Below are positions 30,810-33,323 of a stretch of 33,518 nucleotides of DNA, one piece after another; the stretch's first letter is position 1, and each line of letters starts with the position of its first letter. Source of the DNA: Gemmatimonadota bacterium (lineage in GTDB: Bacteria; Gemmatimonadota; Gemmatimonadetes; Gemmatimonadales; GWC2-71-9). Below the pieces are notes generated by a model, which had not been told where the DNA came from, searched no databases, and worked only from the letters and a program-made list of their open reading frames with translations. The position numbers were made by a program, and so were the translations under genes. The stretch is taken from positions 1-33,518 of the forward strand of contig SHZT01000018.1 in NCBI GenBank assembly GCA_009692185.1. The letters are read 5' to 3'.

Positions 30810-30947
30810 AAAACAGCGGCGAAAACACCGTCGGGGGCCTCCCTGCCAGTGCTGGTGCCCTCTGGCCGCCGGAAAGGGGGGACGCTGTACTCGGGTGGAG
30901 TCCCTGGCAACGCTGGACGGACTGGTTCCGTTCGTGATGGCCGAGCC
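30810..30947 (+). pseudogene. N-terminal fragment of the phage-type gene found at 31971
   Basis: The frame reads KTAAKTPSGASLPVLVPSGR then GGTLYSGGVPGNAGRTGS, closely matching the first part of the product at 31971 (ALVPSDRGGMLYTGGVPGNA). Similarity ends near 30947. The fragment overlaps no gene and follows directly on the HAD stop. It has diverged at both DNA and protein level, so it probably comes from an older or related insertion, not a recent copy. The rest of 30808-31108 has no other gene, only the repeat at 30971. Confidence 0.7.
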
Positions 30948-31870: not shown

Positions 31871-31895
31871 CTGGGGCGGGTGGATTCGAACCACC
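31871..31895 (-). other. tRNA 3'-end-like fragment (T-arm and acceptor), possible attachment site
   Basis: On the minus strand, GGTGG-TTCGAAT-CCACC (31895-31879) is a perfect 5-bp T-stem with a canonical seven-base T-loop. It is followed by CGCCCCA (31878-31872) and G, as an acceptor strand and discriminator would be; CCA is not encoded. No matching 5' acceptor TGGGGCG or D-arm lies upstream, so it is only a fragment. Integrases that target tRNA 3' ends leave just such a piece at one border. The full tRNA would then lie at the far end of the element, beyond 33518. Confidence 0.45.
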
Positions 31896-31970
31896 AACCT
31901 TCCGCACTGACCGTCCCTCCGAATCCGACAAAACGATACAGAATGACGAGTTGAGGAAGCGGGGCTCGGC

Positions 31971-32426
31971 GTGAAACGTCGGACCCCTACCCCCGAAACC
32001 GTCAGCCAACCGTCAGTCCGCAAAACAGCGGAGAAAACAGCGGTCCAACCCCGCCAAACAGCGGTGGGGGCATCCGTGCCCGCCTTGGTGCCTTCCGATC
32101 GCGGCGGGATGCTCTACACCGGCGGGGTTCCGGGCAATGCCGGCGGCACGGGCAGACCGGCCTCGGCCCTTCGGGAACAGCTCCGGGGGTCTTTCGAGCA
32201 GCGAATCCCTGTCCTCGAGGCCATCGCGGACGACCAGGAGCAGAGTGCGGGCGACCGTATCCGCGCACTCGATACCCTGGCGAAGTACGGCCTCGGACCC
32301 CTCCAAGGCGTGTCAGCCGACCAGGTCCGCGAACGACTGCGGGCAACCCTGCAGATCATCTACGAGGAGCTGGACGAGCCACAAGCACAACGAGTCATCA
32401 ACCGTCTACGGGGGGCATGGGCATGA
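31971..32426 (+). CDS. Phage-type protein, possibly terminase small subunit-like
   Basis: 151 residues from GTG 31971. After a basic Thr/Gln-rich start there is a GGMLYTGGVPGNAGGTGRPA motif; similar GG..Y.GG.PGN.GG.GRP stretches begin many phage-encoded proteins that precede terminase genes. A helical region follows (ALREQLRGSFEQRIPVLEAI, RIRALDTLAKYGLG, LRATLQIIYEELDEPQAQRV). The assignment to a terminase small subunit is by analogy and weak. Its stop overlaps the next ATG (ATGA), placing it first in a four-gene chain. A degraded copy of its start lies at 30810. Confidence 0.6.
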   Translation: MKRRTPTPETVSQPSVRKTAEKTAVQPRQTAVGASVPALVPSDRGGMLYTGGVPGNAGGTGRPASALREQLRGSFEQRIPVLEAIADDQEQSAGDRIRALDTLAKYGLGPLQGVSADQVRERLRATLQIIYEELDEPQAQRVINRLRGAWA

Positions 32427-32632
32427 CCAATTTCTGGCCGCCTGACAGCGGACCGCCGATCGACTTGGGAGATGTCTTCGACACAGCAGCTGCTGGAGCT
32501 GTCAGGCGCAAAGGCGTGTTTGTGCTAGCCGTGCGGGAGCCGATATGCGACGAGGAGTTCGAGAAGTTGGTGGAACATAAGCGCCCGAAGGATGGCCGGA
32601 CCTACCTCGTCGTCCGTGCTGTGCGCGAATGA
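32423..32632 (+). CDS. Micro-protein 1 of a tandem coupled set
   Basis: 69 residues from ATG 32423, which overlaps the preceding stop (ATGA); ATG 32417 in frame is less likely because the two following genes start the same way. The N-terminal MTNFWPPDSGPPIDLGDVF matches MTSDLWPNGEPLWPCFGDLF and MTGRLWPDAAGDWLGFDDVF of the next two products. The rest is a beta strand (GVFVLAVRE), a charged helix and another strand (RTYLVVRAVRE). No signal peptide or known domain. The function is unknown. Confidence 0.65.
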   Translation: MTNFWPPDSGPPIDLGDVFDTAAAGAVRRKGVFVLAVREPICDEEFEKLVEHKRPKDGRTYLVVRAVRE

Positions 32633-32865
32633 CTTCTGACCTTTGGCCGAACGGCGAACCCCTGTGGCCCTGCTTCGGGGACCTGTTCAACAACAAAACG
32701 CTGCCCAGAAGCCGCGGAGAGAAACGGTTCGTCGTGCTAAAGCCGCCCGAAGACCTTCAGGCACGGGGTGTCTGGAAGGCCCTACGTCGAGCCTGGGTTA
32801 ACGCGAACGCACCGGCCGAAGCCGACACTGTAATCATTCTCGTAAATGACGAAAATGACTGGTAG
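32629..32865 (+). CDS. Micro-protein 2 of a tandem coupled set
   Basis: 78 residues. ATG 32629 overlaps the stop of micro-protein 1 (ATGA). It begins MTSDLWPNGEPLWPCFGDLF, the same WP...(F/L)GD(L/V)F head as its neighbours. The remainder is KRFVVLKPPEDL, a helix with several Trp/Arg (GVWKALRRAWVNANAPAEAD) and the strand TVIILVNDENDW. It has the same strand-helix-strand outline as micro-protein 1, although the bodies differ. No known domain. Confidence 0.65.
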   Translation: MTSDLWPNGEPLWPCFGDLFNNKTLPRSRGEKRFVVLKPPEDLQARGVWKALRRAWVNANAPAEADTVIILVNDENDW

Positions 32866-33046
32866 GCTCTGGCCCGATGCTGCTGGAGATTGGCTGGGAT
32901 TCGATGACGTATTCCGGCAGGCGTCCCCGCTTGCGCCCGAGGTTCCGCATTGTGAATTCGTCATGGCGGACGCGGACACCCCAGTGGAAGCAGGAGTCTA
33001 CAGGTTCACCCTACAAATAGGTGAGCTCTCGAAGGAACCCGGGTGA
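32855..33046 (+). CDS. Micro-protein 3 of a tandem coupled set
   Basis: 63 residues from ATG 32855, overlapping the end of micro-protein 2 by 11 bases. This start is preferred over ATG 32846 because it gives MTGRLWPDAAGDWLGFDDVF, in register with the heads of the two proteins before it. The body is HCEFVMADADTPVEAGVYRF then TLQIGEL, again strand-rich but shorter. It ends the plus-strand chain; a hairpin at 33103-33124 follows. Confidence 0.6.
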   Translation: MTGRLWPDAAGDWLGFDDVFRQASPLAPEVPHCEFVMADADTPVEAGVYRFTLQIGELSKEPG

Positions 33047-33125: not shown

Positions 33126-33323
33126 CTAACAACCCTGCTGAACCTTCTTTTTTAGGAGCGCTGCCCAATCTTCGTCCGATGTAAGCATAAGGCAGATCTC
33201 TCCGGTAGCAGTGTCGAACCGCCACGTGCGGGACCCTTCCTTGTGAACCTGGAAGCGGCCCGCTTCTTGGCAGCCCGATAGCACAAGTGCGCTCAATGCA
33301 AAGAGCGGTTTGGCGACGGTCAT
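33126..33323 (-). CDS. Small lipoprotein
   Basis: 65 residues from ATG 33323. The upstream sequence GAGGAGAGCACTAGA provides a Shine-Dalgarno. The N-terminal MTVAKPLFALSALVLSGC is a lipoprotein signal with the lipobox LSGC (Cys18 lipidated). The mature part is short: GSRTWRFDTATGEICLMLTS, DEDWAALLKKKVQQGC. The W(R/Y)FDT.TG..C pattern recurs in small cargo lipoproteins of phages and integrative elements, from memory of such proteins. Two further Cys may form a disulphide. It lies 27 bases downstream of the partial gene at 33351. Confidence 0.75.
   Translation of the reverse strand: MTVAKPLFALSALVLSGCQEAGRFQVHKEGSRTWRFDTATGEICLMLTSDEDWAALLKKKVQQGC

Follow-up and report, generated by a model that had tools for sequence, protein, structure and literature searches.

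Three short genes at the end of contig SHZT01000018.1 (Gemmatimonadota bacterium, assembly GCA_009692185.1) form a set of tandem paralogues that follows a terminase small subunit (TerS) gene just inside the border of an element integrated at tRNA-Asn. The window, meaning the whole stretch of DNA that was analysed, covers positions 1–33,518 of this contig on the forward strand, and the features discussed here are listed in Table 1. In our main reading, which we hold tentatively with a probability of roughly 0.4, the micro-genes are duplicated and diverged paralogues in the TerS operon of this element, which would most likely be a phage satellite (an island that a helper phage mobilises, as with PICIs) and not a complete prophage.

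Table 1. Features of the TerS operon and its surroundings, in window coordinates
Feature	Position	Strand	Description and evidence
att copy	31871-31904	-	tRNA-Asn(GTT) 3' end, 34 bp; 100% identity; element border
TerS-like gene	31971-32426	+	151 aa, first of operon; synteny of profile relatives
Micro-gene 1	32423-32632	+	69 aa, starts MTNFWPPDSGPPIDLGDVF; ORF, ATGA overlap, head motif, codon-position GC
Head core WP-x9-GDVF, copy 1	32435-32479	+	Pattern match, 0 in 100 shuffles
Micro-gene 2	32629-32865	+	78 aa, starts MTSDLWPNGEPLWPCFGDLF; ORF, ATGA overlap, head motif, codon-position GC
Head core WP-x9-GDLF, copy 2	32644-32688	+	Pattern match
Micro-gene 3	32855-33046	+	63 aa, starts MTGRLWPDAAGDWLGFDDVF; ORF, head motif, codon-position GC
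Head core WP-x9-DDVF, copy 3	32870-32914	+	Pattern match
Putative lipoprotein gene	33126-33323	-	65 aa, convergent, inside element, 3' of operon; ORF; sub-threshold Pfam LPAM_1 lipobox match

The TerS-like gene and the three micro-genes constitute a chain of four overlapping ORFs. A preliminary description of this DNA had reported three tandem, overlapping genes with products of 69, 78, and 63 amino acids, in which each start overlaps the stop before it, and both observations were reproduced: the overlap takes the form ATGA between the upstream ORF and gene 1 and again between genes 1 and 2, and it spans 11 nt between genes 2 and 3. Alternative in-frame ATG codons at positions 32417 and 32846 would add two and three residues, respectively. 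No terminator was found 3' of the operon, where the scan of the + strand gave no match and the fold was no better than those of shuffled sequences.

From the tryptophan onward, the heads of the three proteins aligned without gaps, consisting of WP, nine residues, and [GD]D[VL]F, so the common head described earlier is present in all three genes at a fixed spacing. The DNA form of this pattern matched three times in the 33.5-kb window, each time within a micro-gene, and not once in 100 dinucleotide shuffles. When the heads were compared pairwise against a background of 3,276 N-termini from other ORFs, a score at least as high as that of genes 1 and 2 (22) occurred in 2.2% of random pairs, and the other two scores, 35 and 42, were equalled or exceeded in 0.04% and 0.007%, respectively; the minimum head score was attained by 7 of 100,000 random triples. 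The likeness between the heads of genes 1 and 2 is thus unremarkable by itself, and on these scores the gene 1 head is the most divergent of the three. Across the three pairwise comparisons, with the start codon left out, 9 of the 21 identical residues were encoded by different codons, pointing to conservation of the protein and not to recent copying of the DNA. The GC contents at the three codon positions of all three micro-genes resembled those of neighbouring genes (0.67/0.44/0.69 in gene 1), and the second position was low in GC in each of them, as it is in the neighbours. From the different codons at identical residues and this coding-like composition, we conclude that the micro-genes are real, anciently duplicated, and divergent tandem paralogues, which arose neither by chance nor from the breakage of one gene. 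Fragmentation of a single frameshifted gene, which the preliminary description had named as the outcome that would overturn it, is ruled out, since each of the three ORFs begins at a start codon of its own and encodes a whole head.

The same description held that the heads agree while the bodies diverge. This is correct for the heads and mostly correct for the bodies, among which there was a weak likeness; MAFFT aligned an F-V pair after each head, and the bodies may therefore not be entirely unrelated. AlphaFold predictions from the three-row alignment had mean pLDDT values of 53.5 and 45.9 and were too poor for use. Within the head, the [FL]-[GD]-D-[VL]-F segment was considered as a beta-clamp-binding motif of the Q-L-[SD]-L-F type and rejected for want of a Gln at the first position, which is occupied by Leu, Phe, and Phe in the three heads.

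Relatives of the micro-proteins were sought widely. Searches of 395 Gemmatimonadota genomes with the single sequences and a three-row profile yielded no relatives, only weak matches that contained stops or lay in other contexts and were taken as chance. There were likewise none among 121 near relatives or, by tblastn, in phage genomes, and none was confirmed in IMG/VR by protein and profile searches. A degenerate DNA pattern for the head with the correct spacing matched 11 times in IMG/VR, and in none of these matches did the WP codons share a reading frame with the ATG; a second form of the pattern matched nowhere in that database. The micro-proteins also had no match in Pfam, PHROGs, NCBIfam, or PADLOC and nothing significant in PDB. 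A lack of other proteins with the same head, the second outcome that the preliminary description had named as overturning it, is what the searches of the Gemmatimonadota, IMG/VR, and phage genomes gave, and this absence does not undo the paralogy within the locus. Of its proposal that a fixed tag is joined to variable payloads, what stands is a paralogous set with a common head; a wider family in support of it did not emerge.

The first gene of the operon encodes a 151-aa protein that had no match above chance in Pfam, PHROGs, or NCBIfam, and its identity was established through synteny. Profile relatives of this protein occurred in 13 of the 395 Gemmatimonadota genomes, with the source genome counted, and in 12 IMG/VR contigs. 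At ten loci (in the genomes G079, G272, and G200 and in seven IMG/VR contigs), a PHROG-recognised TerL was encoded directly downstream of the relative, with a portal protein after TerL at one of these loci. At a further locus, in the genome G178, the N-terminal module of the relative recurs in the ORF that follows it, joined there to Pfam Terminase_2. These positions directly upstream of TerL, together with the Terminase_2 neighbour, show that the first gene encodes TerS, which gives a definite identity to the phage-type gene noted earlier at this place.

The position of the operon at the edge of an element, as the preliminary description had also suspected, was shown by the att border. The 34 bp of the att copy are identical to the 3' end of a tRNA-Asn(GTT) gene near the end of another contig of the same genome (G000:C17:117563-117636), and the inner 17-mer of this copy occurs at only two places in the genome. 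ARAGORN located the tRNA-Asn in C17, with none detected in the window, and the two att copies lie on two different contigs. The usual geometry of tRNA integration places the element to the right of position 31904 and the chromosome to the left, and the GC content is lower to the right of the border. As the copy of the tRNA 3' end marks this border, the TerS operon comes first within one end of an element integrated at tRNA-Asn. About 0.5 kb beyond the operon the contig stops, which leaves 1.6 kb of element sequence visible, so that most of the element is out of view and its integrase, replication genes, and other att are not joined to the operon. On C17, an ORF beside the tRNA-Asn is cut by the end of the contig, and at its 3' end it extends across the antisense tRNA, a common feature of integrase genes; this fragment resembles the C-terminus of a tyrosine recombinase by eye only, and it had no library or PDB match. 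Two short contigs inspected for the interior of the element proved to be ordinary chromosomal sequence, and none of the contig stretches compared contained 25-mers taken from the contig ends. At positions 30819–30929, on the chromosome side of att and just behind a HAD-hydrolase gene, the N-terminal region of TerS was observed as a degraded copy, a trace that an earlier element left at this site.

Related TerS genes were also located in compact islands of other Gemmatimonadota. An 8.1-kb island at tRNA-Pro (G113:C28, JACQBG010000018.1, L025:1169-9299) is bounded by 54-bp att repeats, with a third att copy 2.2 kb further on, and encodes an integrase, an HTH_17 protein, an AAA ATPase, TerS, and a 614-aa protein that is HD/dGTPase-like by eye only. 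A second island, of 6.9 kb (G356:C3, L081:5558-12503), lies between 59-bp att repeats at tRNA-Asn(GTT), the same tRNA that hosts the window element. It contains an integrase gene, a gene for a DUF3631 protein, a TerS-like gene, and several small genes, two of which are in tandem and have an AAKL[VI]W.Y[VM]APMLD stretch in common; we regard this island as a candidate phage satellite of Gemmatimonadota. No recognised TerL was found in either island among ORFs that were annotated in part. In the genome G291, genes for an integrase, an HTH_17 protein, Prim-Pol/AAA, and TerS occur consecutively. All three arrangements are in keeping with the published description of PICIs (phage-inducible chromosomal islands), which in some cases encode a TerS that directs island packaging (PMC6092414).

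The source genome, which is listed as 99.9% complete, contained no TerL of phrog_2 or phrog_38, the two TerL families that accompany this TerS elsewhere. It also contained no Prim-Pol, a point against a satellite. The lack of TerL in the genome and the presence of related TerS genes in compact att-flanked islands without a recognised TerL favour a satellite-like element, and we infer that the window element is probably one. It resembles PICIs in lacking both TerL families in its genome and in having TerS relatives in islands of 6.9–8.1 kb that encode an integrase and replication genes, and it shares with the PICIs and SaPIs that carry terS a tRNA-type att border, a TerS of its own, and small uncharacterised co-transcribed genes. 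Unlike in classical PICIs, however, the TerS gene stands directly at att and reads inward. PICIs comprise an integrase, an AlpA/Stl regulator, a primase, and an ori, none of which is seen in the one visible end of the window element, and the micro-proteins do not resemble any PICI protein known to act in morphogenesis or interference. The arrangement also departs from phage TerS–TerL modules (with a TerL of PHROG 2 or PHROG 38): the 151-aa gene is homologous to the gene directly upstream of TerL at the ten loci, but here the three micro-genes stand in the place of TerL. Satellites encode small proteins for packaging or capsid redirection near their packaging genes, such as Ppi and CpmAB of SaPIs and Sid/Psu of P4. 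The position of these proteins is analogous to that of the micro-genes, but no similarity between the two was detected in Pfam, PHROGs, or NCBIfam, and to our knowledge, none of the small satellite proteins of this kind occurs as three tandem copies sharing a head.

In our main reading, the set originated when one small gene was duplicated and the copies then diverged, and the micro-genes are translated in series with the TerS gene. If the element is a satellite, its own TerS would direct the TerL of a helper phage onto satellite DNA, and the co-translated micro-proteins would act in the same late step, either in packaging or in the redirection of helper particles; a step shared with TerS is the simplest guess given the co-translation. 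The micro-proteins would then function in helper-phage interaction or as packaging accessories. As for their parts, it is our conjecture that the WP-x9-[GD]D[VL]F head, which all three have in common, would dock them to a single partner, which might be TerS, TerL, or a capsid or portal protein of the helper, and that through their diverging bodies the copies would differ in target or form a mixed complex. The most specific version of this scheme, an as yet undescribed packaging or interference module of a Gemmatimonadota satellite in which TerS is translationally coupled to three paralogous adaptors that act on the helper packaging machinery through one docking head and different bodies, strikes us as unlikely.

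The main rival to a satellite is a prophage or its remnant, in which TerS would be a leftover or part of a full prophage whose other parts are unassembled and the micro-genes would be cargo encoding accessory proteins for anti-defence, exclusion, or host takeover, unrelated to packaging. This origin is possible, if on the doubtful side. It is consistent with the phage genomes in which TerL follows this TerS family and with the degraded TerS copy just outside the element, which indicates that such elements decay here, and small, fast-evolving orphan genes are typical cargo. However, the gene after TerS is not TerL, neither TerL family was found in the genome, an intact TerS gene is coupled tightly to the micro-genes, and related TerS genes lie in compact islands with no recognised TerL.

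A non-functional origin, with look-alike overlapping short ORFs arising in DNA of 65% GC or with duplicates in decay, appears quite improbable. The exact spacing of the motif in three of three genes and in none of the shuffles, the synonymous codon changes at conserved head residues, the coding-type GC content by codon position, and the consistent start/stop overlaps all argue against it, although short ORFs are abundant (62 ORFs of at least 40 aa in 5.5 kb), the micro-proteins lacked a homologue in every search, and a head likeness such as that of genes 1 and 2 is not rare among random pairs. Precursors of RiPPs or bacteriocin-like peptides, with the head as a conserved leader and the bodies as variable core peptides, would fit the outline of tandem small genes whose conserved N-terminus is followed by a diverging remainder. 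We consider such precursors very improbable nonetheless: the bodies, with 43–58 residues, many of them charged, and almost no Cys, are unlike cores, the visible 1.6 kb of the element contains no gene for modification or export, the operon begins with TerS, and the micro-proteins had no library match.

Should the satellite reading be true, paralogous adaptor-like proteins linked to TerS would represent a further way for satellites to interact with helper phages, and the locus would point to the existence of phage satellites in Gemmatimonadota, on which a limited literature search found no paper. If it is wrong, the micro-genes would be ordinary orphan cargo genes of a phage-related element. With its three orphan copies following TerS at the border of an element, the gene set is in our view a variant of modest interest among satellite or phage accessory modules, and the complete att-flanked TerS islands of 6.9 and 8.1 kb at tRNA-Asn and tRNA-Pro in Gemmatimonadota are useful on their own.

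Two further observations concern TerS genes outside this operon. In G178:C28 (L082:810-2270), a Lys/Thr/Ala- and Gly-rich N-terminal module, KTAxKTA...GNTGG..GRSGRP, is common to two adjacent genes, the second of which bears the Terminase_2 domain; it has the look of an exchangeable part at the N-terminus of TerS proteins. The source genome also has a second, different TerS-carrying element at the end of another contig (G000:C14, L024:5852-6574), where a rolling-circle replication initiator (Pfam REP_ORF2-G2P, 8e-10) is directly followed by the start of a TerS-like gene that the contig end truncates.
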